Shown: piece by piece, positions 43,519 to 63,789 of the stretch
How positions within the stretch are numbered: the stretch's first letter is position 1
Layout: every line of letters starts with the position of its first letter
NCBI RefSeq assembly: GCF_020906515.1
Contig: NC_085850.1
Coordinates: forward strand, 1,302,001 to 1,366,000
DNA length: 64,000 bases
Reading direction: 5' to 3'
Source: Vanrija pseudolonga
Taxonomy: Eukaryota > Basidiomycota > Tremellomycetes > Trichosporonales > Trichosporonaceae
Made by a program: the position numbers and the translations under genes
The notes under the pieces: model-generated
What the model was told of the DNA's origin: nothing
Database searches by the model: none
Seen by the model: only the letters and a program-made list of their open reading frames with translations

Positions 43519-44049
43519 ATGCTGCCCAACCTCGTTCTCTGCGTGCTCGCTGTTGCCGGCTCGGCCCTCGCCGCTCCAGGCAAGGGCAGCACCAAGGTCG
43601 ACCTTAAGAACGACAACCTGTTCGCGCTGCCACTCACGGCGCTCCACACGCGTGGCTACGTCCCCGAGACGGAGGCCCAGCTCAAGGCGCGCACCGTGGC
43701 CGACAGCATCACCGTCAGCTGCTTCCCCGGCCCCAACTGCTATGGCACCCCCTCCGCGTCCCACACGTACACCAACACGCGCAAGTACAACACCCAGGCC
43801 GTGCTCGCCAACGGCCCGACACAGAGCTTTGGCAGCTGCCGCTTCGACACGACGGGCAACTACCGCGCCTACGTCCAGCTCCAGGGCGCCAGCCCCAAGC
43901 CAGGCCCAAACGGCATCAAGGTCGCCCCCGTGTCCAACATCGGCACGACGCCACCCTCCGGCTCGTACTGCCTCACCCAGAACTCGCTGAGCCAGGACCC
44001 CGCCCGCCGAGGTGCCAGGGTTGTGGTCATCGGCCGTCTTGGCCCTTAG
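43519..44049 (+). CDS. Small secreted protein, array copy 1 (divergent member)
   Basis: A single exon gives 176 aa. A signal peptide (MLPNLVLCVLAVAGSALAAP) is followed by a pro-region ending LKARTVADS, then a domain with the array's cysteine pattern: VSCFPGPNCYG, later GSCRFDTTG, and GSYCLTQ. It lacks the Trp after the FD motif and the C-terminal beta segment differs (ending ARRGARVVVIGRLGP), so it is the most divergent copy. No paralogue lies to its left; the next copies follow at 45.7 and 47.7 kb on the same strand. I do not recognise the family; secretion is predicted from the signal peptide only. Confidence 0.78.
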   Translation: MLPNLVLCVLAVAGSALAAPGKGSTKVDLKNDNLFALPLTALHTRGYVPETEAQLKARTVADSITVSCFPGPNCYGTPSASHTYTNTRKYNTQAVLANGPTQSFGSCRFDTTGNYRAYVQLQGASPKPGPNGIKVAPVSNIGTTPPSGSYCLTQNSLSQDPARRGARVVVIGRLGP

Positions 44050-45140
44050 TCCTTTGACCGTCTTCGTATTAGATGCGTCTAGCTGCGGCTGGCTGTGGAC
44101 ACTTTTTCTGAACATTGATGTAGGCTTTACAAAATGAATCGATTCGAAGACTGTTGCCGAGTTGAACCAGTGTGAATCAAATGGCACAGTGTGAATGCCG
44201 GTCGATGTCGTGTTCATCGGCAACCAGTTGACGCCTCGGCAAGCACCACACCCCTGCACTGAGCTCTGAGAGGGGGGGGTCGAAAAACGCAGCACCTGGA
44301 GGCTAGAGCATTGCCGGCTCCCAGCACTGCCCAGCCAAGCAAGCACAGCCAACACAGTCGCGCACGGCCTGCATTGAGAGTATCAAACCCCTTGTCGAAG
44401 TACGTGCGAGACGGCCGCCATTCTCGCTCGCCCCGCCACACTTACACGGCGACGCGACCATTCACCTAACTCGACGAACCCGTTCCACAACTGCGCTTTC
44501 CAAACGCGACCCAGCCCACCCCTAGCGTCAGACTACGGCCCGTCATCCCCAGCAACGTCTGCAAGTGAAGGGGTTAGGCACAACCAAGTATGCCTCGCGT
44601 CTCCACACCACACCGGTAACGAGGTGCCAACATGCTTGAAACACCCTTAATGGAGCCCCCTGGGCGGGTTCCTCGGCGAACAGCAACCAAGTCGATGACG
44701 ACCGGCGGTGCCTCGGCGTCGGGCGGCGTCACCAAAAGGGCGGTCGTCACGACCACCCGCGTGCGACGCGCCGAGACTGCATCATCCGTCGCCGTCGATT
44801 GCCAATGCCCTCGGCGTCAACAGCGTCGCACAGCGCCGGAGTTGCTACAAGCCCGGAGCACCGGCATTGACTCGGTGCTCCGTACTCGCCGTGACCCGGC
44901 TCGTCGCCCTGCTCGTCCACAACCAACACTCCGTAAACCGCCACACGACGCCCGATGCGTTCCTACAAACAAACCCAGGCTCGTCGTCAATGCTTGTTGT
45001 GCTTGTTTCACTTTGGCACCGCGGTCGCCGATTGGCTTTGACGCCGGCCGAGGTCACACGGCGCGATCACGACGCGCCTGCTCATCCCCAATGATCGTCG
45101 CGACGCACTCGCCGACGCCAGCCGACACCGATGGCGACAC

Positions 45141-45260
45141 GTCTCCCCCTCCGTTTGAGGGGCCGTCACGATGTGAACGGCACCGATCACCGCCGCCCGT
45201 CGACGACGGTCTGGACTGCGCCGCAACCTGTAACTTCTTGGTGTTGTCGACAGTCGCGTC
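45141..45260 (+). promoter_or_regulatory. Promoter module 1 with palindrome CCCCTC-N5-GAGGGG
   Basis: The inverted repeat CCCCTCCGTTTGAGGGG lies at 45146-45162, followed by CGACGACGGTCTGGACTG (45201-45218) and TAACTTCTTGG. The same order recurs three more times upstream of array copies 2 and 3. Confidence 0.7.
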
Positions 45261-45365
45261 GGGAGTCTTGTTACCGTGAACGCGAGATTGACGACGCTAC
45301 ATACAGGCACCTTCGAAGACACAACGACGCCTCATGCACACGTTGTAGAGTGTACGTACGGCGTT

Positions 45366-45470
45366 GATGTCGACGTGTCTACCCCTGTGTTCGACGACGG
45401 TCTGGACTGGTCTACTGCAACTTCTTGGGGATGTTGACAAATGGCGTCGCGCGTATCATTGCCGTGGAGG
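45366..45470 (+). promoter_or_regulatory. Promoter module 2 (palindrome degenerate)
   Basis: Second module before copy 2: a decayed CCCCTGTGTTCGA, then CGACGACGGTCTGGACTGG at 45392-45410, CAACTTCTTGGGGATGTTGA and GGCGTCGCGCG. Confidence 0.65.
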
Positions 45471-45518
45471 TGAGCTTCACGGCGCGACGGACACCCACTT
45501 GGAACACACCGAATCGTC

Positions 45519-45526
45519 TATATAAG
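45519..45526 (+). promoter_or_regulatory. TATA box of array copy 2
   Basis: TATATAAG, 152 nt upstream of the ATG at 45671; identical in sequence and context to the box of copy 3. Confidence 0.8.
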
Positions 45527-45670
45527 ACGGGTTGAAGGTCGCCTTCTCAGACTTCATTCTCAACTCATTCAACTTCCCAACTCTCGACAGGAGCTGTTCA
45601 AGTGCCACCTCCGCTTCCTACTCAAGTCACATTCGCGTCACACAACACACAAGTGTATCTTCCACGCACC

Positions 45671-46299
45671 ATGCTCTTCCGCACCGTTACTCTTGCCCTC
45701 CTCGCCTCGCTGGTGGCCGCCGCCCCGACTCCTGAAGCCGCTCCCGCCCCGGACGCCGCCCCAGCCCCGGAGACTCCCCCGACCAGCGTCTTCGAACGTT
45801 CGGAACTCGTAGAGTCTGAGGGCCGCCCCGTTGGCCAGATCCGGCGCTCAGTGAGCCACGACGGCGATGCCCAGCACCTCCAGGCCCGCGCGGAGAAAGA
45901 TCTCGTGAACAAGCCCGTCCCTGGCGGCGTCACGATCCGCTGCTTCAGAGGGACAGATTGCAAAGGTGATGTGCTCGTGACGTACCGCAGACCCGACCCC
46001 AAGACGAATATGACCTACGGAGTCCACTTCTATGCGCCCGAAACGAACGCTCAAGCTGCAGCTTCGACACGTGGGGCGGTTTCGAGGGCACCTTTGGAAT
46101 CACCATCCCCAAGGGTGAGAAGTATGACGGGTGGGACGGTGACAACTGGACGCCTTATTGGGATGAGATCAGCCCCGTCATCAAATCAGCTGGCCGGGGA
46201 AGCCAGTGTGTCAACCAGAGCGGCAGGACCAAGGGCAACTCGGGCAACGTGATCCAGAAGCAGGGCCGCGTTATCTACACCAGTTCAGACCGGCGTTAG
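45671..46299 (+). pseudogene. Small secreted protein, array copy 2, broken
   Basis: Closest relative of copy 3, with the same promoter. The signal peptide (MLFRTVTLALLASLVAAAPT), Pro/Ala pro-region (PEAAPAPDAAPAPETPP) and first part of the domain (VTIRCFRGTDCKGD) are readable. The frame is broken about once; family sequence continues beyond the break to the matching end. It may be a young pseudogene, a variant allele or a sequencing error. Its TATA box and 3' hairpin are intact, so it may still be transcribed. Confidence 0.8.
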
Positions 46300-46345
46300 G
46301 GTGCCGACTGCCGCATGGCCCTCAACACATTGCTGTAGTCTTTCC

Positions 46346-46362
46346 GTCGTTCTGTGAACGAC
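46346..46362 (+). terminator. Hairpin GTCGTTC-TGT-GAACGAC downstream of copy 2
   Basis: A perfect 7-bp inverted repeat with a 3-nt loop, 47 nt after the matching stop position. The same hairpin follows copy 3. A 3'-end or mRNA-stability role is inferred. Confidence 0.55.
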
Positions 46363-47097
46363 GAGTCGCTTGACTTCTTCTTCACCACCGGCGTGTCCCC
46401 CCAGACCGGTCCCTTTTTTATGACCCCCGAATCCTACCCCCGAATCCTCATGTACCAGTTTGAACGTTCCTTGAGGGCGCCGAGAGGGAGGGTGCCAGAT
46501 ATGTATCCGCCGCTGGGCGTGCGGATTTGGAGTTCGCAGTACGGGCTGGTACCAGACCTAGCCGTGAGGTACACTGGACCAAACTTGGAGGGCGACCCAA
46601 GGCGCATGTTGTTCCTGTGCCTCGGAGACAGACAACCAACTCGATGACCTCTGAGTGGGTGGTGCCTCGGCGTCAGAGTCCCCGCAGGGCCGCGTACGAC
46701 GCGCCGAGACTGCATCATTCGTCGCCGCACGCGAGACGCGCCGAGGTTGCATCCCCATCGCGGGAAAACTGACACCATCCTCGGCACCAGACAGCGTCGC
46801 ACGCACCGCCGACTTGCTCCGCGGTGCAGCGCGGACTCGGGCTCGGGATCGGCGTGGCATACTCGCGCCGCCCCGAGTCGTCGAGCTCCGTGAAATGCAC
46901 GCAACACGGGGCCCGGTGCCTTCCTTCCCACAAACAAGAGCCCCGCCCGTCGTCATGCTTGTTGCGCTTGTTTCACTTTGACGCCGCTGCGGCCGCTGTG
47001 ACTTTGACGCGCGCGGGGAGCCTTTTAAGGCTCAATCGCGACGCGCTCACTCGACGGAATCAGGACGATGTCCCGGCAACGCCGACGCCGCGACTGC

Positions 47098-47215
47098 GAC
47101 GCGTCTTCCCCTCCGTTCGAGGGGCCGGCACCGATCACCGCACGCACACTCGTCGTCGGCGGTCTGGACTGCGCTACTTTCTGTAACTTCTTGGCGCTGT
47201 TGTCAGGTCACGACG
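47098..47215 (+). promoter_or_regulatory. Promoter module 3 with palindrome
   Basis: CCCCTCCGTTCGAGGGG at 47108-47124, then GCGGTCTGGACTGCG, TGTAACTTCTTGGCGCTGTT. Counterpart of module 1 upstream of copy 3. Confidence 0.7.
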
Positions 47216-47317
47216 GGGATTATCGCCGCGGACGAAGCTTCACGACGCCAGCGCACGCACCTTGGACGACACCGCGGTGCCTCCTGCACGCGTCGTAGAG
47301 TACCACGACAACGACCA

Positions 47318-47435
47318 CGACGCGTCTGCCCCTCCGTTTGAACGGCCGACACGGGGCACCGCTCTTCTAGTACACGACGACGGTCTGGACTTGCGACTAA
47401 ACTTCCTGGGGATGTTGACAGTCGCGTCGCGTAGC
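47318..47435 (+). promoter_or_regulatory. Promoter module 4 (palindrome partly decayed)
   Basis: CCCCTCCGTTTGAACGG near 47330, then ACGACGACGGTCTGGACTTG (about 47374), AACTTCCTGGGGATGTTGAC and GTCGCGTCGCG. Counterpart of module 2. Confidence 0.65.
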
Positions 47436-47497
47436 GTTGTTACCGTGGTGATCTTCGCGACGCGACATACACGCTCTTTGAAACACGCCGAATCGTC

Positions 47498-47505
47498 TAT
47501 ATAAG
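47498..47505 (+). promoter_or_regulatory. TATA box of array copy 3
   Basis: TATATAAG, 161 nt upstream of the ATG at 47659, in the shared context CCGAATCGTCTATATAAGAC. Confidence 0.8.
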
Positions 47506-47658
47506 ACGCGTCGAAGGCGCCTTCTCAGACTTCATTCTCAACACATCCAACTTCCCAGCTCTCTACCGTAGCCTCACAGCTCCACCAAGTGCTACCCACG
47601 CTCTTTACTTCAGCCACACTCACTTTACTCGACCCCAAAGGTGTACCTTCCACACACC

Positions 47659-48288
47659 ATGCTCTTCCACACTGTCGCTCTTGCCGTCCTCGCCTCGATG
47701 GCCGCTGCCATCCCAGCTCCCGAGGCAGCCCCAGCTCCCGATGCCGCTCCCGTCCCCGAGTCCGCCCCCGTCCCGGAGACGCCGGCGACCCCCGTCTTTG
47801 AGCGCGCGGCTCCTTTGCAGTCTGCAATGATCCCCGCGAGCCAGAGCCAGCGCTCAGTCAACGACACCTCTGTGGACCACCTCGCGGCCCGCGGCCCCCA
47901 GGACGTCAAGCATTTCCCCCTCCAGGGTGGCTTCACTGTGCGCTGTTTCCACGGGCCCGACTGCCAGGGCAAAGAGCTTTCCATCAACGAGGAGCACAAC
48001 CCCGCCACTGGGTGGACGTACTGGGCCCCCTTTTGGGCGCCTGACAACGAGCGCTCGAGCTGCCGTTTCGACACGTGGGGCGGCTTCCAGGGCGACTTTG
48101 CCGTCACTGTCCCCAAGGGCAGCGGCGGTTGGGTGGGCAACAGCTGGTCGCCCGACTGGATTGAGGTCAGCCCCGTCCGTCACTCGAACGGTCAGGGCCA
48201 GCAGTGCATCGCCCAGAGCGGCAGGACCAAGGGCAACTCCGGCAATTGGGTCCAAAAGCAGGGCCGCGTTCTTCACCTCAAGATCTAG
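47659..48288 (+). CDS. Small secreted protein, array copy 3
   Basis: A single exon gives 209 aa. Signal peptide MLFHTVALAVLASMAAAIPA; an Ala/Pro-rich pro-region (PEAAPAPDAAPVPESAPVPE) up to the junction LAARGPQ; then the domain FTVRCFHGPDCQGKELS, WAPDNERSSCRFDTWGGFQG, and GQGQQCIAQSGRTKG. All four family cysteines are present (C-x5-C, SCRFD, GQQC). The last 25 residues (GNWVQKQGRVLHLKI) differ from the left-facing group but match the tail of copy 2, so copies 2 and 3 form a subgroup. Intronless, TATA box 161 nt upstream, hairpin 45 nt downstream. Function unknown. Confidence 0.85.
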   Translation: MLFHTVALAVLASMAAAIPAPEAAPAPDAAPVPESAPVPETPATPVFERAAPLQSAMIPASQSQRSVNDTSVDHLAARGPQDVKHFPLQGGFTVRCFHGPDCQGKELSINEEHNPATGWTYWAPFWAPDNERSSCRFDTWGGFQGDFAVTVPKGSGGWVGNSWSPDWIEVSPVRHSNGQGQQCIAQSGRTKGNSGNWVQKQGRVLHLKI

Positions 48289-48333
48289 TGGTGTTGGGCA
48301 GCACTCGAGCCTAGCCAACGTTTTGTATTCTTT

Positions 48334-48354
48334 ACGTCGTTCTGTGAACGACGT
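48334..48354 (+). terminator. Hairpin ACGTCGTTC-TGT-GAACGACGT downstream of copy 3
   Basis: Perfect inverted repeat with 9-bp arms and a 3-nt loop, 45 nt after the stop codon; the same core follows copy 2. Possible 3'-end or RNA-stability element. Confidence 0.55.
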
Positions 48355-48871
48355 GTCCTTTCGTTTCTTCTTCGCCAGCACTATGCCTACCCAGGCCGGT
48401 GTTTTATGACCCACAAATCTTTATGCAACCCGTTGTACGTTCCTGGAGCATGCCAGGAAGCGATCGCTGGGTCAGGGTCCCTGGGCGGATGTGGAGTGCG
48501 TACTGGTGTAGGAACACACACACACACAGCCAGGTACATAGGCGCAACCAAGCTTGGGGGACGCCCGAGGGTGCGAGTATATGCCTCTGGTTCCCCAGAA
48601 TGGGGTCCCCCAATAGACCCCAGTAGGATCAGCCTGAAGTACCTCCGCTCCATTCGCTACCTGGGCATATCACTGTTGTACCAAGTGCAAAGCGGAGCAA
48701 AAGGTGATAGCATCAAAGTGTGTCCTTTAGGCTGTTTGGGTACACTACATAAAGGCTTTAGGGACCAAGGCGGTCGTTTACGGGCCATGGTACCCTGGCA
48801 GGACGGACGAAAAAGGGTTGTACATAACCGAAGTGGCGAGAAGGACTGGGGGCGCGATATTGACGCCGGCG
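48355..48871. other. Junction between right-facing and left-facing array blocks
   Basis: About 517 nt between two convergent copies. A short CA microsatellite lies at 48513-48528. No gene recognised. Confidence 0.5.
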
Positions 48872-49486
48872 TTAATGACGGTATGCAGCAGCAAACTTGA
48901 CAACGTCGTCGCTGCCCTGAGTGCTCCACTGCCACTGGTTGACGCAGTACTGGCCCCAGCCGTTGGAGTAGTTCTCGCCCGAGATATGCTGGAGGGCGAA
49001 GGCGTTCTGGCCATCGGTGCCACCGGGGGCCATCCAGAACGTGCCCCAGAGGTTGTTCCACACGTCGAAGCGGCAGCTGGCCAGGCGGTTGCCAGGGTGC
49101 TTGAAGTAGAGGCCGTAGAAGTACCCGTTGGGGATGTTGTTGATGTCGCTCCACTCGGCGATCTGGTTGCCGTTGCAGTCGAGGCCGTCGAAGCAGCGGA
49201 TCGAGAGGCCCGCATAGTCGCGCGCACTGATCGGCGAGGTGTCGACTGCGCCGTCGCGCGTGTGCTTGGTCGGCGCGGGACTCTTGGCCGAGATGGCAGT
49301 GGCCACGCCCTTGAAGTTGTCGCGCGCCTCGATGTTGCCGCCAGCGTCAGCCGCACTAGCGGCGACAGGTGTAGGGGTAGGAGCAGGACCAGGGGCCGAG
49401 ACCACACCCAGACCTTGGAAGCCTGGGGCCGGGGCAGCGGCCGCCAGGGCCGCGGTGAATGTGAGGATGATGGAGTGGAGGAGCAT
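48872..49486 (-). CDS. Small secreted protein, array copy 4
   Basis: A single exon gives 204 aa. Signal peptide MLLHSIILTFTAALAAAAPA, a long pro-region (about 65 residues, with EARDNFKG) up to SARDYAG, then the domain LSIRCFDGLDCNGNQIAEW, HPGNRLASCRFDVWNNLWG, ISGENYSNGWGQYCVNQWQW and a final strand VVKFAAAYRH. It matches the family consensus well, with four domain cysteines. It has two AR-D sites, so the pro-region may be partly duplicated. TATAAAAG lies at 49594-49601, 108 nt upstream. The start at 49486 is fixed by the MLLHS start shared with other copies; a longer frame upstream is not used. Confidence 0.87.
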   Translation of the reverse strand: MLLHSIILTFTAALAAAAPAPGFQGLGVVSAPGPAPTPTPVAASAADAGGNIEARDNFKGVATAISAKSPAPTKHTRDGAVDTSPISARDYAGLSIRCFDGLDCNGNQIAEWSDINNIPNGYFYGLYFKHPGNRLASCRFDVWNNLWGTFWMAPGGTDGQNAFALQHISGENYSNGWGQYCVNQWQWSTQGSDDVVKFAAAYRH

Positions 49487-49593
49487 AGTGCAAACGAGTG
49501 TGGGCTGCAGGTGGCTAGGTACTTGGGTGCTGAGGTGGAGCTGGGGAGAGAAGAGTTGGAGAAGATGTCGAGGAAGGGCTGCCATCGCACCGT

Positions 49594-49601
49594 CTTTTAT
49601 A
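49594..49601 (-). promoter_or_regulatory. TATA box of array copy 4
   Basis: TATAAAAG on the reverse strand, 108 nt before the ATG. Confidence 0.75.
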
Positions 49602-51087
49602 GACAACACAGGTCACCTCCAGCGACAACATCGCGCATCCTCCAGGCCAGCGCGTCGTCGACAAGACGGCATGGCGTCTGAGCCGGCGCGCTCGACACGC
49701 GGTCACCTTCGTTCTGCAGCTCGTGTTCCATTTCCTCCTCCGCCATCCTCGCGTCCTCAGACATGTTACCCTCCCTCCTGGTTGAGCCGGGTGCTGCACA
49801 AGGCCCACATTCCATACGGCGGACCGCCGCTCTCCAACGAGCAGGATAACCAGCGGCGCCTGCAGAACGCGTCTCCTTCACGACGGCGTCCGCGGAACGC
49901 GTCTTCCTCACAACGGTGACAGAAACCCACTTAAACCACGGCCTCCTCACACGTTAATTCACTAAACATGCAGCGCATGACGTCTACACGGATATCTCCG
50001 CAACCGCGCGATTCCCAGACTTTGGCTCGCCGTTCGGGGGTGCCGGTACCAGCGTGGGTACTTCAACTTAGCTCGCCGCTTGAAACAAGCTTACACGTCT
50101 CTAACGTGTGCAGGGGTTGGCATGGATTGTTCGAACGCGCACCGGGACCGACGGTGACGCGTCTTCGTCGGCCTGGGCCGTACGGGACCCGGCCGCACAC
50201 GTACCTCAAAGCCCCAGAGGCGTTACATCTCCGGGCTTTGTCTTGTGGGCAACACTCTGAAACGCACCTCGGCGTCATGGGGAACGGTCACCGATTCCGC
50301 GAGGCGCAAGGGGAACCTGCTCTGTTGGCTTCCGTCGCGTCGCCATCGCCCGTGTTCAAGAGGGTCGCCCACAGCGCCCACCGCAATGCTGGGCCGACCC
50401 AAACCCAGGCTGGACGACTCTCGCCCCACCCTTGGCCCAGACCCGACATCCAACGGCAGTCACCTGCCCACCGCGCTACACATCGGACGAGCGCACCGAT
50501 GGGCACGGCCGTTTGATCGCCATCGACGCGCGTGGAACACGACGCGGCTCGCCGTTGCAGGGAAGCTTGAAACCCCGCAATTAGGTCCGGCTTCCGCGGA
50601 CGGCGGATGGACAGTGGGAGTCGGTACTGGGCCAACTCAGGGCGTGGGTCAAGCATGCACCCACCCGCAAGTAAGCTTGAAACCTTGTTCCTGACTAGCC
50701 TTGGGGCCACACATTGGACGGGACACGGCCAGCGCCGACGCGTCTCCCGCATACTCCCTCTGCATCGGAGCGTCGACGTCATGCATTGCGACGCGTCGCC
50801 TCGCGGATGAGGCCATCACAGCTTCTGCACGCAGTGCTCTTCTTCCACTCCGGAGCCGAGCCCACATTCACGTCCCAAGGTTGCGGACGATCATCCGTGT
50901 CTCCAAGACGGAGTACCTGCAAGCTATGGACTTGGGTTGGACTGTGAAAGTAGAATGACGCCCCTCAAAGTGTGGGACGAGGCACTCCGTAAGCTTGCAT
51001 GACTAGATATATGTCCTAAACGGGGACCAATAGATTACGGGCAACGGAAGCAACATTACGAGCAACGGAGGTAGCCTTCATTGCCAA
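49602..51087. other. Intergenic, copies 4-5
   Basis: About 1.5 kb with no recognisable gene. Contains two AAGCTTGAAACC-type motifs (near 50571 and 50672); a diverged relative occurs near 54790. Confidence 0.5.
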
Positions 51088-51567
51088 TCAATTGGGGTTA
51101 CGGAAGAGAACCGCGATCTTCTCGATGTTGCCCAGGCTCTCGGTGGTGTTTTCCAACTGATTGACGCAACTCTGACCCCAGCCTTCAGAGTAGGTTGCCT
51201 GGGATACGACGTGATCGATCCAATAGGCCGACACCCAAAAGCTGGCCTTCAAGTCGTTCCAGGTGTCGAAGCGGCAGCTGACCCGCCGGTCCGAGTCATG
51301 CTGGAAGCCCCAAGAGTACGACCAGCCCGGTTTGATCCCATTCCAGTCTCCTGACGTAAAGACAATGTCGCCGGTGCAGTCGAGACCGTCGTAGCAACGG
51401 ATCGAGATGCCTGTGCTGTCGAAGGGCTCCACCGAGTCTCGAGCAGCAACCTCTGGAGTACGGGCTGCTCCAGAAGCGGCGTCATTGTTGTTAATGAGGG
51501 GGTTCGCGGCGGGAGCGGCGGTGGCCAGAGTTGCGAGGAGAGTGAGGGCCACTGAGTGAAGCAGCAT
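51088..51567 (-). CDS. Small secreted protein, array copy 5
   Basis: A single exon gives 159 aa, the shortest open copy. Signal peptide MLLHSVALTLLATLATAAPA, a short pro-region with VAARDSVEP, then ISIRCYDGLDCTGDIVF, RRVSCRFDTWNDLKAS, EGWGQSCVNQLENTTES and a last strand EKIAVLFRNPN. All four domain cysteines are kept; the usual glycine after W-x is changed (DTWNDLKAS). A possible N-glycosylation site is NTT near the end. The TATA-like GGTACATAAG is 74-83 nt upstream. The start at 51567 begins the shared MLLHS; the longer in-frame upstream stretch is not family-like. Confidence 0.86.
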   Translation of the reverse strand: MLLHSVALTLLATLATAAPAANPLINNNDAASGAARTPEVAARDSVEPFDSTGISIRCYDGLDCTGDIVFTSGDWNGIKPGWSYSWGFQHDSDRRVSCRFDTWNDLKASFWVSAYWIDHVVSQATYSEGWGQSCVNQLENTTESLGNIEKIAVLFRNPN

Positions 51568-51640
51568 GCTGTGGGCTATGTCGCCGTTCGGTTCGTTGAA
51601 TGTGATGTGGTTCTCGGCCCACTGGGAAGAAACCGCCCTC

Positions 51641-51650
51641 CTTATGTACC
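51641..51650 (-). promoter_or_regulatory. TATA-like element of array copy 5
   Basis: GGTACATAAG on the reverse strand, about 80 nt upstream of the ATG; the same ACATAAR form occurs at copy 6. Confidence 0.5.
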
Positions 51651-51933
51651 CCTCGACTGCTCTGGTCCTTGAGAAGGGATTGCCTCGAAACAATGAGAAT
51701 ACTAGAAGGCCAAACGGTGTCTACATTGTACGGTGTTGTATTGTCTTTCGCTCCAATGCCTTTTGTTTCAATGTCATGGGCTGTATTGTCCCACTCAGAT
51801 GGCTGCGTCTCCCTTCATCGACTCACTCCAGCCAAGACCATCCACAAATATGTAACATCAAATGATTTGGTATGAAAGTTGGGAGAATACGGAGAGGAGG
51901 GAGGTGCACTGCCAGTGGTCTCAAGCTACTGTA

Positions 51934-52458
51934 CTAAGCAATGGCATCGCGCCACACAACGACATACTTGTTGACCATGCCTGTACCCTGGAAGCTGTCT
52001 TTCCACTCGTTGACGCAGTACTGGCCCCACCCTTGCGGGTAGTTCTTTCCTGAAATCTGTCGTTCATTGTCGGCCCGCATGTAAAAGTTGCCCTTGTAGC
52101 CGTTCCACACATCGACGCGGCAGCTGGCGAGCTGGTTGGCGGGATGCTGAAAATCGTAGACAGTTCCGCGGACGATCTTACTGAGCGACGGTTTGCCGAT
52201 AACGTCATTCCATTCATAGAACGGCTTGCCTTTGCAGTCGGGCCCATTGTAGCAGCTGACGGAAAAGCCTGCGTTGTCTCTGGCCTCGACGGGGGCGCTG
52301 GCATCGCGAGCAATGAGGTCCACAGGGATCGTCACCCCGCACGTGTTCCGGTCGACCACGGTGGAGGTGTCGGCAGAGGCGTCGGCGAGAGGCTCCGGGG
52401 TGGGAGCCGAAACGGCGAGGGTGGCGGCCAAGGCGAAGATGAGGGAGTGAAGGAGCAT
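51934..52458 (-). CDS. Small secreted protein, array copy 6
   Basis: A single exon gives 174 aa. Signal peptide MLLHSLIFALAATLAVSAPT, pro-region with one extra cysteine (DRNTCGVTI), junction VEARDNAG, then FSVSCYNGPDCKGKPFYEW, HPANQLASCRVDVWNGYKGN, ISGKNYPQGWGQYCVNEW and the final VNKYVVVWRDA. It is close to copies 4 and 7 over the ISGxNY-x2-GWGQYC stretch. ATACATAAAG lies at 52543-52552. The extra pro-region cysteine is unique here and might pair within the precursor. Intronless; copy 5 lies 366 nt downstream. Confidence 0.88.
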   Translation of the reverse strand: MLLHSLIFALAATLAVSAPTPEPLADASADTSTVVDRNTCGVTIPVDLIARDASAPVEARDNAGFSVSCYNGPDCKGKPFYEWNDVIGKPSLSKIVRGTVYDFQHPANQLASCRVDVWNGYKGNFYMRADNERQISGKNYPQGWGQYCVNEWKDSFQGTGMVNKYVVVWRDAIA

Positions 52459-52542
52459 TGTGTTGGGTCTGTTCGGCGGTGGATCGGTTTGAGATGGCGG
52501 TAGAACTGAGAGGACTTAGAGGAGAGGGGAGCATCGGCCTCC

Positions 52543-52552
52543 CTTTATGTAT
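52543..52552 (-). promoter_or_regulatory. TATA-like element of array copy 6
   Basis: ATACATAAAG on the reverse strand, about 85-94 nt before the ATG. Confidence 0.55.
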
Positions 52553-53539
52553 CCAAGAGCGTAGGCGATGATGGCCACACGATACCCTTTTCCTCCAAAA
52601 CAACGCGTGGACCACAACACGTCCCCTGCATGGCTTGACCTGTGGTACCGCACGTTCCAGCCAGCCGTGACCTAGGGCGACCTCGATTCCTCCGTCTGGT
52701 TAGGAACCTGAAACCGAGTGCGGGATGGACACGCGTCAGGTGATCAGGCACAGACGCGTCTTGCTGCTCGTTTCTTTCCCCAAGTCACGTCGTACATCTT
52801 TAATATGTACACTTCACGTCGAGCCGCGGCCGAACACGCGTGCAGCGGATGAGCTCTTGCCACCCCCACGGCGAAACTCTCCGCGTTACGGTTGTTGCGA
52901 CCCGCACCCCTGACCCCAGAGCCGTTGGAACCGGCCTTGCGGGAACGGACCGAGACTATTGTCGCTCCGCATCGTCGTAAGCCTGCAGGAGCCGATGGCA
53001 AGCGCGGTGAGCCAACCGGCGCATGGAGAGGATAAACATAGATGACAAAGAAGCTTGTACTGTGCTCGGCCCATTGCGCGGTGTCACCCCGGTTTCCCCC
53101 CCCCGTCCTTTCATATGTCACCCACGCATGCCAGCCTCATCACTTGACGTTGAGTAGCCTTCAGGTCCGACATCGTGCCTGAGTCATGACCTCTTTGAAC
53201 TAGAGCCGGTCTTTGGTTGTGAGGAGTAGAACCCGTTGCGGAAAAGATAGACGTGGCTCCTCGTGACATGTCGGAGCCTGGGGGAGGTGTTGGGGTACAT
53301 GGTGAATAGAAAGAACTGGGTACAGTACTGCAAGAAATGTCGACACATAGATCTGGCGCTACATAAAGGTCGGAGAAAGGGGGCGTCGGGAGGTGAACGA
53401 TGTTGTGAGGCATATACAAAACTAACTAATTCAGGTTGGGAAAGGGCTCTTGGAGGTGGGGATGGAGGTGTGACACATCGACTAAAGGATTTCGTCCCAA
53501 AAGCACGTCTGACTCAATGTGCAGAACCAACTCTTCCTA
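52553..53539. other. Intergenic, copies 6-7
   Basis: About 1 kb with no recognisable gene or repeat. Confidence 0.45.
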
Positions 53540-54037
53540 CTAAGCAGGCCATACAAGCAGAAACTTGTTCACGTAGCCGGGACCCTTGGTGCTGTACGGC
53601 AACTGGTTGACACAGTACTGGCCCCAGCCCTTGGGGTAGTTCTGGCCCGAGATGTATCGGTCGCTTTCATCTTGAAGGTGGAACTCGCCAGTCCAGCCGT
53701 TCCAAACGTCGAGGCGGCAGCTGACAAGTCGGTCCCCATAATGAGGGAACCGATACCACCTTCCGGATCCGGGCTTGTTGTTGTTGGCGTTGTCTATCCA
53801 CTCGAACAACTTGGTACCGGTGCAGTCGAGCCCGTCGAAGCAAAAGATCGAGTAGGCCCCAGTGGTGCGCGCTTCGAGGGGAGCTGTCTCCGCATCCTTG
53901 TCTACCTTTCGTGAGGCAGGCGCTGAAGAGCCTAGATCCTTGGCGACAACGATGCCGGAGTCGGGGGCAGGAGCGGTGGCGGGAGCGGCGGTGGCCAGAG
54001 TGACTACGATGGTGATGAGGATGGAGTGGAGAAGCAT
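53540..54037 (-). CDS. Small secreted protein, array copy 7
   Basis: A single exon gives 165 aa. Signal peptide MLLHSILITIVVTLATAAPA, pro-region with acidic and lysine residues (RKVDKDAETAPLEARTTG), then YSIFCFDGLDCTGTKLFEW, YGDRLVSCRLDVWNGWTGEF, ISGQNYPKGWGQYCVNQL and a final strand VNKFLLVWPA. It is the closest match to the family consensus, and close to copies 4 and 6. TATATAAAAA lies at 54126-54135. The in-frame upstream ATG near 54100 is rejected because the shared start is MLLHS. Intronless. Confidence 0.88.
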   Translation of the reverse strand: MLLHSILITIVVTLATAAPATAPAPDSGIVVAKDLGSSAPASRKVDKDAETAPLEARTTGAYSIFCFDGLDCTGTKLFEWIDNANNNKPGSGRWYRFPHYGDRLVSCRLDVWNGWTGEFHLQDESDRYISGQNYPKGWGQYCVNQLPYSTKGPGYVNKFLLVWPA

Positions 54038-54125
54038 GGCGAAGGCGTATTGTGGTTGCGCGTCGGAAAACTTGTGAGGACTTGGGAGATGGATCACCAT
54101 GTGCAGCTATGATCTTTTTCCTCTC

Positions 54126-54135
54126 TTTTTATATA
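54126..54135 (-). promoter_or_regulatory. TATA box of array copy 7
   Basis: TATATAAAAA on the reverse strand, about 90-98 nt before the ATG. Confidence 0.75.
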
Positions 54136-55448: not shown

Positions 55449-55952
55449 CTAATAGCGACCGTACACAACATTGAACACACTGGGGGCGGTGATGATGCTA
55501 GGCCAGCGATCGACGCAGTACTGACCAGAGCCAGGAGAGTAGTTGTTACTGGAGATGTGTGTGGCGCTGAAGGGGCTCGGCCCCCCAACGGATAGATAAA
55601 TGACGCCGGCCCAGCCGCCCCAAGTGTCGAGGCGACAGCTGGCCTCGCGGCCCCCGTCAACCGAGAATGCGCCCCATGTCCCGTGTCCGATGGTGTACAC
55701 GTTGGTCAGCCAGGCAAACGGGTCACCCCGGCATGAAGGGGTGTGAAATCAATAGATGGAGAAACCACCGTCTCGGGAGGTCAGTTGCTCGGTAGTGTTT
55801 GAGTGCGGCATAGGTTGGGTCGCGATCTCAGCGGGCGTCATAGGTTGGGTCGTGATCTCGGTGATCTCGAGAGGGGGATCCACTGGAGCTGCAGATGCTG
55901 TGGCGGCAAAAAGAGTCGCAAGCAGTGCGAAAATGATAATCTTGTGGAGCAT
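55449..55952 (-). pseudogene. Small secreted protein, array copy 8, broken
   Basis: The signal peptide (MLHKIIIFALLATLFAATAS), a short Thr/Pro pro-region and the junction LTSRDGG are readable, and the second half of the domain is clear (EASCRLDTWGGWAG, SGQYCVDRW, FNVVYGRY). The frame is closed about once between them. It is otherwise full length, which points to a recent loss. A TATA-like GATAAAAGG lies at 56066-56074. Confidence 0.8.
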
Positions 55953-56065
55953 GGTTGGTCGAGCTTGTGATGATACGGTATCAGGTTGAGATGGTTGGGG
56001 AGAGGGTCTGAACTTCTTGTGAAGATGGCATGAAGAGACTGAATCGAAGGCCGGTTCGAGGCCGC

Positions 56066-56074
56066 CTTTTATCT
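56066..56074 (-). promoter_or_regulatory. TATA-like element of array copy 8
   Basis: GATAAAAGG on the reverse strand, about 115 nt before the ATG. Confidence 0.5.
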
Positions 56075-57585: not shown

Positions 57586-58119
57586 CTACCACCGGATCGA
57601 ATACACGGCCACTTTCATAAGGCCGCCGTTGTGAGAGCCGACAGAGTGTTGCCACTGGTTGACGCAGAGCTGGCCACTGCCTCGCGACGTCTCCTTGGTA
57701 GAGATGGGCTTGTTGCTGTTCTCGTAGGCGTTGGTGGAGGCACTGTTCACCATATAGAATTGGCCTGCTCAGCCATTCCACGTGTCCAAGCTGCAGCTGA
57801 TACGCCGGGGCAAGCTTGGGAGATCAATGGCGAACCACTCGTTGTGCCCATGATCGTATCTGTCACCCGAGAAGATAATCTGCTTCCCCTTGCAGTCGAT
57901 GTTGTCGTAACACCGAATCGCCATACCGGCGCGGGCGCGTGACGAAAGTCCGTCTTTGATGTTCTCCAGAGCGGAATCGGAGACGTTTGGGATGTCGATT
58001 TTCGAGAGGTCCTCGAGCGCGTTGCCCTTAGGGGCGACGGCGGTCGCATCGACCTCAGCTGCGGGAGCTGCTACGGCGATAGAGGCGAGAAGCGCGAAGA
58101 TGACGGTCTTGACGATCAT
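57586..58119 (-). pseudogene. Small secreted protein, array copy 9, broken once
   Basis: Signal peptide MIVKTVIFALLASIAVAAPA, pro-region AEVDATAVAPKG, junction SSRARAG, then MAIRCYDNIDCKGKQIIF and RRISCSLDTWNG. The family sequence goes on to GSGQLCVNQW and a last strand MKVAVYSIRW. The frame is closed about once inside the domain, so it is probably a pseudogene unless the interruption is read through or is a sequence error. TATA-like CTTATAAC lies at 58228-58235, 109 nt upstream. Confidence 0.8.
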
Positions 58120-58227
58120 GGCGGTGAGGTTCAGCGGGTATGTCGCGTGCGGTGGCCAATTGTCCGAGTGCAGGTGTGGATCGCAGTAGTTGCCGGGATG
58201 ACTTTGAGACTTCACTTGAGCGCGTCT

Positions 58228-58235
58228 GTTATAAG
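58228..58235 (-). promoter_or_regulatory. TATA-like element of array copy 9
   Basis: CTTATAAC on the reverse strand, 109 nt before the ATG. Confidence 0.55.
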
Positions 58236-59022
58236 TCGCGGTGGCCACAGTCGCGTTAGGCCACAGTCACCTCCACTAGCTCCTGCCAAGCCGCCTCCTA
58301 GGTGGGCTGTTGAGCGGGGTTGGCGCGAAGGAGGCCGCTGCCGGTCCCAGTCAGGAAACCCGTGGTCTTCCCTAGTCCATCCTGAAGGGTGGTCGTGGAG
58401 TGGATAACTCTTGCTCGACGACTCCCTATATGATGGGGGTCCGAGTATCCTATGGTGTGGTTCACGTCGGAAGTGGCGGGTGGGCAGGAGAAGTTCAGGC
58501 ACGCGATGCGTCGCACGATTCGGCGCACCCTGCGGAGGCCTCACAGGTCGGGGCGAATGTCGGGGCCGTAAACAACCACCATTGCCGAAGCCACGGTTCC
58601 TTCGGGGAGAGGGTGGCCAGAACTGCACAGACTCCGTGGGCTGGGGGCAGTGTCCACCAAGTGCACTTTCGACTCATAAGCTTGCGCATTGTTTCGGATT
58701 GGCTCCGGCAGAGGGCCTCACCCTGCTTTACACTGTCACCAGATGACATCAGGTGGGTGACGCGTCTTGGAATGCCAAGACGACAGCTTGGTCAAGGTTT
58801 ACGGCCTTCACATACCGCAGCCGACGCAGCCGCCAACTGCCTCCAACGCCGACCTGTGGCACCACCTGCTACTGAAGCGCGCTCGACATGGGCGCGGCTG
58901 AAGCCAACGCACATCGTGCGTTTGGCCCTGGCGGAGGGACAAAGCTGATCCACCATTCATCCATTTATGGGATACCTAGTGGCTGAAAGCGTCGTTGCGC
59001 CCATGCCGAGGCCTGTAACGTA
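58236..59022. other. Intergenic, copies 9-10, with the left edge of the second duplication
   Basis: About 790 nt. From about 58,738 it is similar to about 60,430 onwards (GTGACGCG, AACGCCAAGAC-type blocks), marking the downstream flank of duplicated copies 10 and 11. No gene recognised. Confidence 0.55.
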
Positions 59023-59577
59023 CTAGTAGCGCCGGACAACAGCTACAGCTGTTAGCGAACCTCCGAATCGATTCACTCCAGGCCAGCCTGCGAGACACCG
59101 CTGGCCACCTCCGTAGATTGACTGGGGGCCAACTATGGTCGGAACTACATGTGCATAGTCGAGGGCTGTCTTCGCGTCGATGGCTTGGACAATTTTCATT
59201 TCGCCGTTCCACCCGTTCCAAGCGTCCAAGCGGCAGGCGATGGGTGTCCGGAAAGGGACTTCAACCTGTATCGCATAGGTCACACCAGACCTGTAGTACT
59301 GGTCGCCAGAGCTGGCCATCTCAATGCCTTGACACTTGTCCGAAAGGTAGCACCTGACGGCAAATCCGGCCGAATTGCGGGCCTCGAGCTGAGCCTCGGT
59401 GCTCTCGGAGGCGGAGATCGTGATGGCCTCGTTGTCGCCGATCTTGATAGCCTCGGTGCCCTCGGACAAGACATTGGCTGTGCCTTTAGAAGTCGGAGAA
59501 GAGCTATCGACCTGAGCAGTGGGCGCCGCGGCCGCGAGCGAGGCAACGAGGACCAGGATGATGGTGCGAAGAAGCAT
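59023..59577 (-). CDS. Small secreted protein, array copy 10
   Basis: A single exon gives 184 aa. Signal peptide MLLRTIILVLVASLAAAAPT, a pro-region of acidic/Ser character (ANVLSEGTEAIKIGDNE) up to LEARNSAG, then FAVRCYLSDKCQGIEMASSG, TPIACRLDAWNGWNGEMKI, a longer loop than in copies 4-7, IYGGGQRCLAGWPG and a last strand LTAVAVVRRY. Forms a subgroup with copy 11, which sits in the same duplicated unit. TATAAAAG lies at 59676-59683. The first two cysteines have a more charged loop than in the GLDC/GPDC group. Confidence 0.88.
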   Translation of the reverse strand: MLLRTIILVLVASLAAAAPTAQVDSSSPTSKGTANVLSEGTEAIKIGDNEAITISASESTEAQLEARNSAGFAVRCYLSDKCQGIEMASSGDQYYRSGVTYAIQVEVPFRTPIACRLDAWNGWNGEMKIVQAIDAKTALDYAHVVPTIVGPQSIYGGGQRCLAGWPGVNRFGGSLTAVAVVRRY

Positions 59578-59675
59578 GGTGAGGTAGGAGTGTAGCTACG
59601 ATTGAATCTGATCGTAGTAGTGTTGAGGATGTCGCAGATGTTGGAGGATGGAGAATGGCTTCCCATTCGAACCCG

Positions 59676-59683
59676 CTTTTATA
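59676..59683 (-). promoter_or_regulatory. TATA box of array copy 10
   Basis: TATAAAAG on the reverse strand in the context GCCTATAAAAGCGGG, 99 nt before the ATG. Confidence 0.8.
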
Positions 59684-60739
59684 GGCGTAGTCTCAGACCT
59701 CACATCAACTAGAGTTCGCACAGTTATCACTGCTCGAGCACAGCACCTTTGTCGTAGAGTTGGTTGTGAGGTAGGCATGTCCGCGCCTGACCAATGTGAC
59801 GAGGACTGCCGCTGCGGATATTCAAGGAACCGCGGGTGTAGTGATGGTGGTGCACTTGGCAGGGAAGCTGGTTATACCACAGGTTGGGTGACACATGCGA
59901 CCTTCAATGACGGAGCGGTGACTAATGCTCCCCGAACGCAGGGATGTGCGGCTATCATCATGAGTCTGGACGATGGGGCGGGTGGTTGTCATGGCGGGCT
60001 CGAGCAGGAACAAGCTTCAACTCTGCTCACGTGAAGCTTGGTCTGGGTATCGCACCGTCGCCCAGGAACCTCCTACCTTGGAAGCGACTAACCTTCATCG
60101 TCCCGAAAGCCCTTTGCCGCTCCGAAGGCCCTTGGCCGCTCCGAGGAACCCGGGGTCGACCTTGTTGTCCGAAAGGACAGGATGACGCCCAGCCGATGCT
60201 ACGTCTGAAGCACCAGCCCGTCATCACTCCATGAACCTATGAGGGAGGGCATAGAACAGTAGTCATCCGTGTATCCTATGTACGGCGCACGTGTCCGCCA
60301 TGCGGCAACCCCTTGACCTACATATTAAGCTTGACCCTTGAGCCCCGTGCTTCGCACCGCGTTCCGCATTGGTGATGTGGTGGTACCGGGCAGCATCTAT
60401 CTCCACGCGCCCACAGTAGAGGCCAGCATGTGGTGACGCGACTGGGAACGCCAAGACAGCAGCTCGGTCAAAGCAGGGGCCTTCTTCACACACCACCGAC
60501 AGCGGCACCCGCCGCCTGCCGACATCTTCGACCTGGATACCACCCCCCAATGATGCGCGCTCGAAATGGTACAACCGAACCCATCGCACATCTTATTCAC
60601 TTGCACGAACACTCTTGGTCTCGGCCATCCCCTCATAGCCGAGGACGAAGCTGTACTCTCATGCATCCGTACGCCGGTCATCAAGGTGTTGAAAGTGACG
60701 GTGCGATGCCGTCGACCTTTGTACATGTACATAACGGGC
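59684..60739. other. Intergenic, copies 10-11
   Basis: About 1.05 kb, made of the upstream flank of copy 10 and the downstream flank of copy 11, both duplicated. No gene recognised. Confidence 0.5.
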
Positions 60740-61303
60740 TTAGTACCGCCTGGCGAGAGCTACAGCTCCCATCGAGCCTCCGGCTTGGTTCTGCGTAGGC
60801 ATACCTCTAAGACACAACTGGCCACTTCCGTAGATAGATTTGGGTCCAGCAATGTCTCGTCCACCATTTTTAAGGGCGGTGTTCACGTTGAACGCTTCGA
60901 CAATCTTGAGTTCGCCGCTCCAACCGCTCCAAGCGTCAAAGCGGCAGCTGATGGGTTTCCCGTAAGGGACGTTGGTATGTATCGCATAAATGATGCCAGA
61001 CGGATAGTGTAGGTCACCAGAGCTGCGCACCTCGGTGCCTTGACAGTTGTCCGAGAAAAAACACCTGATCGCAAACCCGGCCGAATCGCGGGCGCCGAGC
61101 TGAGCCTCGATGCCCTCGAGGTTGGAAATTGAGCTGTTGACTATCTGGATATCCCCGGTGTCGATCATCTTGATAGCCTCGGTACCCTCGGGCAAGACAA
61201 TGGCGGTGTCTTCAGTAGTCGGGGAAGAGTTGACAACCGAAGCGGCAGGGGCTGCGGCGGCAAGAGACCCAACGAGGGCAATGATGACAGTGCGAAGAAG
61301 CAT
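60740..61303 (-). CDS. Small secreted protein, array copy 11
   Basis: A single exon gives 187 aa. Signal peptide MLLRTVIIALVGSLAAAAPA, pro-region IVLPEGTEAIKMIDTGDIQI up to LGARDSAG, then FAIRCFFSDNCQGTEVRSSG, KPISCRFDAWSGWSGELKI, IYGSGQLCLRGMPT and a last strand MGAVALARRY. It is the tandem partner of copy 10; the pro-region differs by an insertion (SSISNLEGIEAQ), so that part changes faster in length than the domain. TATAAAAG at 61397-61404. N-glycosylation sites NSS occur in the pro-region. Confidence 0.88.
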   Translation of the reverse strand: MLLRTVIIALVGSLAAAAPAASVVNSSPTTEDTAIVLPEGTEAIKMIDTGDIQIVNSSISNLEGIEAQLGARDSAGFAIRCFFSDNCQGTEVRSSGDLHYPSGIIYAIHTNVPYGKPISCRFDAWSGWSGELKIVEAFNVNTALKNGGRDIAGPKSIYGSGQLCLRGMPTQNQAGGSMGAVALARRY

Positions 61304-61396
61304 GGCGAGCAGGAAGTAGGTGCTGAGAAGGTTGAATCTGACTGAGAGGAGTCGGGGGAGGTTGAAGGATAGAGATTGGCTTGCAGGTCGAGACCG

Positions 61397-61404
61397 CTTT
61401 TATA
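61397..61404 (-). promoter_or_regulatory. TATA box of array copy 11
   Basis: TATAAAAG on the reverse strand in the same GCCTATAAAAGCGG context as copy 10, 94 nt before the ATG. Confidence 0.8.
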
Positions 61405-61977
61405 GGCGTCATCTCTTCTCGAGCACACCACCCTTGTCGTTGACTCGGTTGTGAGGGATGCCTGTGCGCGTAGAAGAAAGGTGACGAGGACAACAAGGAA
61501 CCGCGGGTGTAGTGATGGTCGTGCGCTTGGCAGTGAGACCGGTGGGTGACTTCCGTGTTCTTCCTTACTTTAATACAGTCGGGCCACCGGTATGCAAGGT
61601 GAAGCGGTGACTAAATGCTCCCTGAAGGCAGAGATACATATGCGGTTACCACGGGCAATGGACCTCCGACGTTGTCATGGCGGGGTCACGCAGGAACAAG
61701 CTTAAAACGCTGCTTACGCGAAAGCTTGGTCCGGAACACCGTCCCAGAAGGCATCTGTGGCCCAGGAACTTCTGTACCTACTGTATGTACCTACCTTGGA
61801 GCCGACTAACCCTCATCTTCCCGAACGGAGCCCAGGGCGGTTGTCGTCTTGCCAACCCATACAACGTCTCCGTCGTTACAGTAGTCATCCGTGTATGCCC
61901 ATGCGGCGCGAGCGGAAAAGGTTGAGACACTTTGAAGAGGCGGGGTGGTTGTCCACACGGACAGTGGGCCACGGACC
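61405..61977. other. Intergenic, copies 11-12
   Basis: About 570 nt, mostly the upstream flank of copy 11 shared with copy 10. No gene recognised. Confidence 0.5.
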
Positions 61978-62481
61978 CTAAAACCTGTGTGTAATAGCCA
62001 CAACCTTGGTATTCTCGGACGGCCAAGCGAGGGCGGCCTCGCTATCCGCCATGTCGACACAGTACTGGCCGGCGCCGGGGGAGCTGGTGGAGCCCGAGAT
62101 ACGATTGCCCTCGAATAGGTTGGGCGAGCCCCCTCTGATGAGGTACATTTCGCCGGCCCATCCCTCCCAAGTGTCGAGCTGGCAGCTGATTTGGCGAAAG
62201 CGCGGGATAATGATCGCGAAGGCGTACCACGAGCCGGGGGGATAGTCATACTTGTCGGGCGAGTGCCCAATCTCTGGTCCGGTGCACCCGGGCTGCTGAA
62301 AGCACCTGACCGCCATGCCGGACGGCCCGCGGGCGGCGAGCGCGGTGCCGTCGGTACTGTCGGGGATGTTGGCCTCGTTCGAGCTTCTCGCCTCGAGCTC
62401 GCGGGATAAAGACGAGTCGCTGACCGGGGCTGCGGCTGCGAGCGATGCCACGAGGACGAGGATGATGGTGAACTCGCGCAT
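61978..62481 (-). CDS. Small secreted protein, array copy 12
   Basis: A single exon gives 167 aa. Signal peptide MREFTIILVLVASLAAAAPV (with charged residues near the start in place of LLHS), pro-region SLSRELEARSSNEANI up to LAARGPSG, then MAVRCFQQPGCTGPEIG, RQISCQLDTWEGWAGEMYL, SGSTSSPGAGQYCVDM and a last strand KVVAITHRF. The four cysteines are kept, with Gln in place of Arg after the third. Only a weak TATA-like TGCATAAA is visible at 62579-62586. Confidence 0.87.
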   Translation of the reverse strand: MREFTIILVLVASLAAAAPVSDSSLSRELEARSSNEANIPDSTDGTALAARGPSGMAVRCFQQPGCTGPEIGHSPDKYDYPPGSWYAFAIIIPRFRQISCQLDTWEGWAGEMYLIRGGSPNLFEGNRISGSTSSPGAGQYCVDMADSEAALAWPSENTKVVAITHRF

Positions 62482-62586
62482 AATCGTGTGGGTATGGGGG
62501 GGTGTTGTCGCCTTTGAGCTGTGAGCTGTGAGCTATGAAGTGTGCTGTGGACGGTATGAGGCGTCGTCGCGAGCGGGTCATTTATG

Positions 62587-63279
62587 CAGCGACTGTACAT
62601 CTGCAACGCCCTATGGTTGCCACAGCCTCCCTGGAACTGCCACAGCACAGCTCTGGTATCCGTTGGCATCAAGGGCCCCTTCGGCCGGGGGATACCTGGG
62701 CCGAGACAGCGGGGTCGAAGCGGGCAACGCCGCTACTTAGCGCGAGACAAAGTTCGAGCTACTGCTCCGTCGAACAACGGGCGGTGCAGTCTTCGCGACG
62801 ACGGGTGCTGCAAGGACACGCAGACAGCCGCACGATAACTGTGCGTACTCTTCACAGTCTCAGCTGATCTCCAGTCCCGACGCCGAAGATAATCGGGTCG
62901 GGAATGCGGTGCCCGACGGCCGCCTTCGGCGAACGAGGCGCGGGAGCCACTGTCTCCGTGGGAGTGGTTACTGCCTGACAACCAGACCGCGGTATGACAC
63001 AGCACCGCCCTCCCGCGCCAACCTAGTCCGTTAAGCTAGCATTAGGCACTGTAAGCTTGCTTTTCGGGAGGGATGGCCTCCCACCGACCGTCGCGGAGCA
63101 TTGCAAGCCATGCCTTAGAACGCAACCCGCTGGAGCAGAGGGTAACACACCCCTTGCACCCTACCTTCCTTGCCTCGAGGTGCAGGCACTGCAGCGACCG
63201 ATTCCAGACACTTTGCATTTTACGATACGAAGCACTTGATAAGAGGCCTGCTGGTGTAGCGTCCAGATGGAAACAATCC
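62587..63279. other. Intergenic, copies 12-13
   Basis: About 690 nt with no recognisable gene or repeat. Confidence 0.45.
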
Positions 63280-63789
63280 TCATTGCGGCCTCCACCGCTT
63301 GGTCATAAGCTTCAGACTATGGTAGCCAGGGGCAGCTTTGGAAAACGTCCACTTGTCGACGCAGGCCTGGCCGGATCCGCCGGAGTAGTTGCTACTGGAA
63401 ATCACGCTCCATACTCCGTCGTACAGACCAAGGATGTAGAACTGGCCCATCCAGCCATTCCATGTGTCGAAGCGGCAGCTGAAGTCCCTGTTATAGGGAT
63501 AACTGTACCCGGTGATTGCATATGGGGTGTCAAAGGGTATGTCGTAGAACTCGGAGGGAAAGAATTGGATGGGGTTGCCTTGGCACCCTAGTTGCTCAAA
63601 GCACCAGAGCGAAAGACCAGGTCGGTTGTCACGCTCGCCCAGTTGCCCGACACTGTCGTCGCCCCAAGGCGCGGACGCGTTCCGTGGCGAGATGGCTTCG
63701 GCGGCGTCGACGGCGTCGGCTGCGTCGGCCACTGGGGCGGCCGCGGCGAGGGAAGCAACGAGGGCGGCGAGGATGGTGTGGAGGAGCAT
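63280..63789 (-). CDS. Small secreted protein, array copy 13
   Basis: A single exon gives 169 aa. Signal peptide MLLHTILAALVASLAAAAPV, an Ala/Asp-rich pro-region (ADAADAVDAAEAISPRNASA) up to LGERDNRPG, then LSLWCFEQLGCQGNPIQFF, RDFSCRFDTWNGWMGQFYI, SGGSGQACVDKWTFSK and a last strand SLKLMTKRWRPQ. All four family cysteines are kept. A possible N-glycosylation site NAS lies in the pro-region. CTTATAAAC at 63908-63916 is the likely TATA box, 119 nt upstream. It is the last copy visible; the array may continue past the right edge. Confidence 0.88.
   Translation of the reverse strand: MLLHTILAALVASLAAAAPVADAADAVDAAEAISPRNASAPWGDDSVGQLGERDNRPGLSLWCFEQLGCQGNPIQFFPSEFYDIPFDTPYAITGYSYPYNRDFSCRFDTWNGWMGQFYILGLYDGVWSVISSSNYSGGSGQACVDKWTFSKAAPGYHSLKLMTKRWRPQ

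Follow-up and report, generated by a model that had tools for sequence, protein, structure and literature searches.

Effector-like tandem clusters have been studied mostly in plant pathogens, and those with Tin2-like members belong to smut fungi. Here we describe an array of 13 related genes for small, putatively secreted four-cysteine proteins in the basidiomycete yeast Vanrija pseudolonga, situated at positions 43519-63789 of a 64,000-base window (the whole stretch of DNA analysed) on contig 2 of the nine-contig, 24.87-Mb genome; the genus is placed in the Trichosporonaceae (PMC7026411, passages). In the layout of its products the array looks like the K2PP effectors (SnTox3, ToxA, SIX1/4/6), for which passages of PMC8528282 and PMC10942635 give the same order of parts, an N-terminal pro-region followed by an LxxR, KR or RR site and then the mature domain. 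LxxR is among the motifs that define K2PP effectors (passages of both papers) and is an expanded Kex2 motif in which Leu or another aliphatic residue is favoured at P4 (PMC8528282, passages); the array has this arrangement too, with an N-terminal pro-region and then, within the first half of the protein, LxxR in 11 of the 13 copies and KR or RR in none. However, the definition of K2PP effectors comes from plant pathogens and requires that the secreted protein lack its pro-domain. No sequence relative of the array family was found outside Vanrija.

In its evolution the array seems to resemble tandem effector clusters. Tin2-like clusters likewise consist of diverging, tandemly duplicated secreted paralogues that keep their fold and cysteines (PMC9816061, passages), but they are clusters of plant pathogens, whereas Vanrija is described as generally free-living, and no sequence relation was found. 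Proteins with the ToxA-like fold (ToxA, Avr2) are also small and secreted, and ToxA carries a Kex2-type pro-domain (PMC8528282, passages), as the Vanrija proteins putatively do. Hce2/Ecp2 proteins are of comparable length (179-213 amino acids (aa); PMC6637899, passages) but differ in that the Vanrija copies match no Pfam family. We regard the array as an apparently new orphan family of a known kind, the lineage-specific tandem clusters of small secreted proteins; what sets it apart is chiefly the organism that carries it. The likeliest reading, to which we give about even odds, is that Kex2 processes its products and that they bind outward targets outside the cell in the manner of effectors or inhibitors.

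The earlier note on this DNA had described thirteen related, intronless genes spread over 20 kb, ten of them open, and all thirteen were located. The first three lie on the plus strand and the following ten on the minus strand; the ten full open frames (159-209 aa), which are the basis for calling the genes intronless, stand beside three broken copies (g2, g8 and g9):

g1: 43519..44049, plus strand; open, 176 aa; the most divergent copy, basic, with a domain lacking Trp; relatives in three species, including P0010 and P0011; modelled
g2: 45671..46299, plus strand; broken by a frame change within the domain (three-frame translation); tandem duplicate of g3
g3: 47659..48288, plus strand; open, 209 aa
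g4: 48872..49486, minus strand; open, 204 aa counted from the family's ATG, the open frame extending further upstream
g5: 51088..51567, minus strand; open, 159 aa
g6: 51934..52458, minus strand; open, 174 aa
g7: 53540..54037, minus strand; open, 165 aa counted from the family's ATG; model 1 is of its mature domain
g8: 55449..55952, minus strand; broken by a single in-frame stop at 55749-55751
g9: 57586..58119, minus strand; broken by a single in-frame stop at 57769-57771
g10: 59023..59577, minus strand; open, 184 aa; forms a tandem duplicate pair with g11
g11: 60740..61303, minus strand; open, 187 aa
g12: 61978..62481, minus strand; open, 167 aa
g13: 63280..63789, minus strand; open, 169 aa; the last copy found

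The copies are united by a shared domain, and the three cysteine motifs given for it in the earlier note are borne out: C-[FY]-x4-C-x-G and [SA]-C-[RQS]-x-D-x-W in 12 of the 13 copies each, and G-x-G-Q-x-C in 11 of 13 (the same scan gave two chance plus-strand matches, at 50641 and 51517). All 11 matches of the window to a two-part cysteine motif fall within the array, with none in 1-43000 and none in any of 50 order-2 Markov sequences. Across 19 full aligned domains (the ten open window copies and nine relatives) all four cysteines are invariant, as are three other residues: a Gly two positions downstream of the second Cys, an Asp three positions downstream of the third and a Gly three positions upstream of the fourth. 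The four cysteines probably form two disulfides, a pairing that we infer.

Ahead of this domain each copy appears, by eye, to carry a signal peptide, with an initial Met, a hydrophobic core and, in most, A-x-A-P. A variable pro-region follows, and then an Arg with an aliphatic residue at P4. Counted over the 20 residues ending five residues before the first domain Cys, [LIV]-x-x-R is present in 13/13 copies and LxxR in 11/13 (all but g4 and g5), with KR or RR in none. When the pro-regions were shuffled 2000 times each, [LIV]xxR averaged 1.6 of 13 (maximum 6) and LxxR 0.6 of 13 (maximum 5), and the observed counts were reached in 0/2000 shuffles; the nine relatives show the two motifs in 8/9 and 7/9 cases. 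The pro-region described in the earlier note is borne out, and the export signal stands as a prediction made by eye. A search of the genome for the proprotein-convertase P-domain gave a single match, which covers 57 of 86 positions at E 1.5e-15 and has one stop in its frame; only one of 14 control genomes matched as well, making it plausible that the genome encodes a Kex2-like enzyme. TATA-like boxes within 160 bases of the ATG (98-152 bases before it) in six of the 13 copies (g2, g4, g7, g10, g11 and g13) suggest separate promoters; among 160-base stretches drawn at random from the window, 1.5% contain such a box, a baseline that represents window sequence rather than promoters. No common 7-mer was found upstream of more than five of the 13 genes.

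The shared structure that would be expected among models of one family is seen in the two of ten open copies covered by structure prediction. The g7 and g1 mature domains, which are 24% identical, were both modelled with eight strands in identical order (predicted local distance difference test scores, pLDDT, of 91.8 and 82.6). In a Foldseek search with the g1 model, Avr2 (5od4) ranked seventh (E 0.012) and ToxA (1zld) eighth (E 0.014); the matches to these two proteins had E values of 0.012-0.025 and template modelling (TM) scores of about 0.35-0.42, and designed immunoglobulins and cupins ranked higher. Neither protein was among the best 50 matches listed for the g7 model, and sequence-profile searches of the PDB yielded chance matches only (best E 0.6 and 1.6), with none to ToxA-like proteins. 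The sole match below 1e-3 in a viral library, Wsv464 (E 2.5e-4, TM 0.40, root-mean-square deviation 10), was judged a generic beta-sandwich match.

Proteins of the beta-gamma crystallin, SMPI and WmKT type are marked by two Greek keys with [FYW]xxxx[FY]xG; the Vanrija domain shows part of this motif and eight predicted strands. We take the [FY]xxxxCxG hairpin and the later D-R-x-x-S-C of the Vanrija domain to resemble the crystallin signature. A crystallin fold, an idea that came from the hairpin motif, is not claimed: five structural searches (three with Foldseek, two with VIA) had no crystallin among the best 50 matches listed for each, an absence that excludes nothing. Nor did comparison with carbohydrate-binding modules and lectins (jelly-roll fold and sugar-binding site) or with PliG lysozyme inhibitors (PliG fold and inhibitory loop) give a clear assignment.

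The earlier note had assigned the copies to no known family, and this held. No Pfam family fits the window copies or their relatives: none of ten window stretches (nine open copies and the g2 frame) matched at E ≤1, and at E ≤10 there was no match for seven open copies (the only scan to cover g13) or for two sets of found proteins (0/9 and 0/3). NCBIfam gave nothing convincing for the ten open copies. An Hce2/Ecp2 identity, prompted by a database label on P0004 and P0009, was dropped after a scan with PF14856, the model that has elsewhere been assigned at E < 1e-5 (PMC6637899, passages), covered 11 window stretches (the ten open copies and the open frame of g2, with g8 and g9 left out) and 12 found proteins with no match. 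P0004, P0009, P0017 and P0018 bear the database names 'Ecp2 effector protein domain' or 'Ig-like domain', and Pfam at E 10 placed none of the four in any family. Two database gene models also depart from the genes themselves: P0004 (LOC62_02G002298) joins the N-terminal parts of g10 and g9 (57586-59577), though g10 is a full open frame, a fusion perhaps due to the stop in g9, and P0016 (LOC62_02G002292) skips the frame break in g2 (45671-46299) and drops part of the domain. Gene models and automatic names can therefore mislead here, through bridged or fused models and an 'Ecp2' label unsupported by Pfam.

Six whole-genome protein queries together recovered all 13 copies, no copy to the right of g13 and, at E 0.065, one weak extra place on contig 5. 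In 5.8 billion proteins, two profile searches reached only V. pseudolonga itself, three proteins of V. albida (two of them neighbours by locus number, the third on a different contig) and six proteins from another assembly, each on a 39,044-base contig taken as one and the same. No named genus besides Vanrija was reached by homology searches of the array family and the contig 5 orphan; these searches need shared five-residue words and one of them scored 8000 candidates only, so that distant relatives may be missed. Within the searches made, the family is known so far only from Vanrija. No such family is named in the titles and abstract openings of Vanrija papers among the matches listed, or mentioned in passages of PMC12820176.

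The weak extra place (L030:1501-1944; contig 5, 2372951-2373394; LOC62_05G007629) is an orphan gene with an apparent signal peptide and a partial CY-x4-C-x-G / ASCR pattern, reached by one array query only. Compared with the array family by hhalign it gave 21% probability (E 0.001, 53 columns). A genome search with it returned itself only, and its sole other relative found was V. albida P0018 (65% identity). To judge by these matches it is possibly a distant cousin, and it was kept outside the membership.

Array growth by tandem duplication is directly visible. The g2/g3 pair (repeat spacing 1953-2004 bases) and the g10/g11 pair (1671-1726 bases) are tandem duplicates whose similarity reaches into the upstream flank. 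For six copies (g1, g3, g4, g5, g6 and g13) the closest relative is in the six-protein assembly, with mature-domain identities of 65-86% over aligned residues or 59-86% with gap columns counted, and therefore at least six lineages are older than this split. The tree unites g3, g6 and g13 with their counterparts on starred branches and leaves g4 and g5 in its open parts; P0010, P0011 and g1 make up another starred group, in which g1 is paired with P0011, from V. albida, though P0010 is closer by identity. When g4 is compared with g7 (48875-54037), the mature domain shows less synonymous divergence (pS 0.35) than the pro-region does (pS 0.63), perhaps a trace of past gene conversion; no gap of this size in that direction was found in the other four paralogue pairs compared.

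Variation is unevenly spread over the protein. Between species, substitutions per aligned residue were 0.40 in strand 2 and 0.31 in strand 3, compared with 0.06 in strand 4 and 0.12 in strand 7, and 0.33 at non-strand positions compared with 0.22 in strands overall, all from six between-species pairs with small counts. The first 20 residues were 85-100% identical in five of the six pairs (60% in g3), and in five of six they were better conserved than the mature domain.

Taken together, the design of the proteins suggests how such a system could work. Each gene would encode a pre-pro-protein of signal peptide, variable pro-region, [LIV]-x-x-R and a mature domain some 110-120 residues long, the last a predicted eight-stranded beta sandwich holding the four invariant cysteines. 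Late in the secretory pathway Kex2 would cut off the pro-region, and the released domains would act outside the cell as binding proteins, with variable strands 2-3 and the loops as the putative contact surface; strands 4 and 7, which hold two of the four cysteines, are the least changed. Candidate targets are proteins or glycans of competitors, predators, hosts or the surroundings, with different copies presumably directed at different targets, and the family would gain copies by tandem duplication and lose them by frame and stop mutations. A bolder form of this proposal, which we consider less likely than not, is that of a diversified recognition arsenal: a new Kex2-matured beta-sandwich family in which strands 2-3 and the loops of each copy have been fitted to an outside partner of its own, be it a competitor, a grazer or a non-self fungus, with birth and death as in pathogen effector clusters.

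Several observations weigh against this outward binding role. In V. albida the searches found just three members of the family, which means that not every Vanrija species needs a large set. Vanrija species are described as generally free-living (PMC7026411, passages), and thus no host is established; single isolates of other Vanrija species from human urine have been reported, and V. albida has been reported in a stable nematode-associated community (PMC11542624, passages), an ecological lead only. The mature domain was less conserved than the pro-region in just three of six orthologue pairs (gap columns counted). Nei-Gojobori ratios of nonsynonymous to synonymous change (dN/dS) for the mature domain were 0.24-0.96 in five paralogue pairs (0.49 in g10/g11), a crude test on chosen pairs without a significance test; the values indicate loose constraint, and positive selection was not found in the five pairs. 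Finally, comparison of the g7 and g1 models with solved structures gave no confident match among the matches listed, and for that reason a binding role is drawn from the common fold only. The earlier suggestion that the array forms a functional system, be it of effectors, inhibitors, antimicrobials or self/non-self factors, keeps the standing of an inference: copy number and divergence fit it, but dN/dS does not exceed 1 in the five pairs, and charge speaks against a uniform antimicrobial action, as set out below.

Among the alternatives, the best placed is a self-directed role, which we consider doubtful but worth keeping in view. The products would then be structural or adhesive proteins of the cell's own wall, capsule or biofilm, or would bind carbohydrates in its own or substrate polysaccharides, and the family would have expanded for dose or for growth conditions. 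Secreted killer-type toxins or antimicrobials against microbes or small animals are less probable and in our view unlikely. At pH 7 the mature domains span net charges of -10.7 to +8.7 when all 19 are taken and of -6.1 to +6.8 in the window's ten, a range that counts against one uniform cationic antimicrobial action. A neutrally drifting cluster, with duplication ahead of loss and most copies without a separate function, would fit the three broken copies of 13, the few V. albida copies found and the fairly high dN/dS (0.96 in one pair); yet ten of 13 copies are open with all four domain cysteines, six orthologue pairs keep their cysteines at 59-86% domain identity, and dN/dS is below 1 in every pair tested, and we regard drift as very improbable. 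That the copies are diverged Hce2 (Ecp2-type) effectors, as the source label on P0004 and P0009 would have it, is scarcely credible given the PF14856 result.

The left neighbours of the array are an amino acid permease, an aldehyde dehydrogenase and a glucose-methanol-choline (GMC) oxidoreductase, and its right neighbours an ATP-binding cassette (ABC) transporter and a major facilitator superfamily (MFS) transporter. As far as tested, no other recognisable gene lies between the copies, in line with the earlier note: of 59 open reading frames (ORFs) of at least 80 aa listed for 42000-64000, array copies included, ten other ORFs between or overlapping the copies were chosen, and none matched Pfam (E 0.1). 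Scans of the window for tandem repeats, tRNAs and Rfam families returned nothing relevant to the array; a tandem array of a 14-base unit in about 8-10 copies lies at 19685-19822, in the left part of the window.

In the searches made, the family is confined to one array and one genus. A cluster of this effector-like kind, with Kex2-type pro-proteins and a shared predicted fold, in a yeast described as free-living would favour the idea that contests among microbes, or between microbes and animals, give rise to such arsenals ahead of any association with a host.

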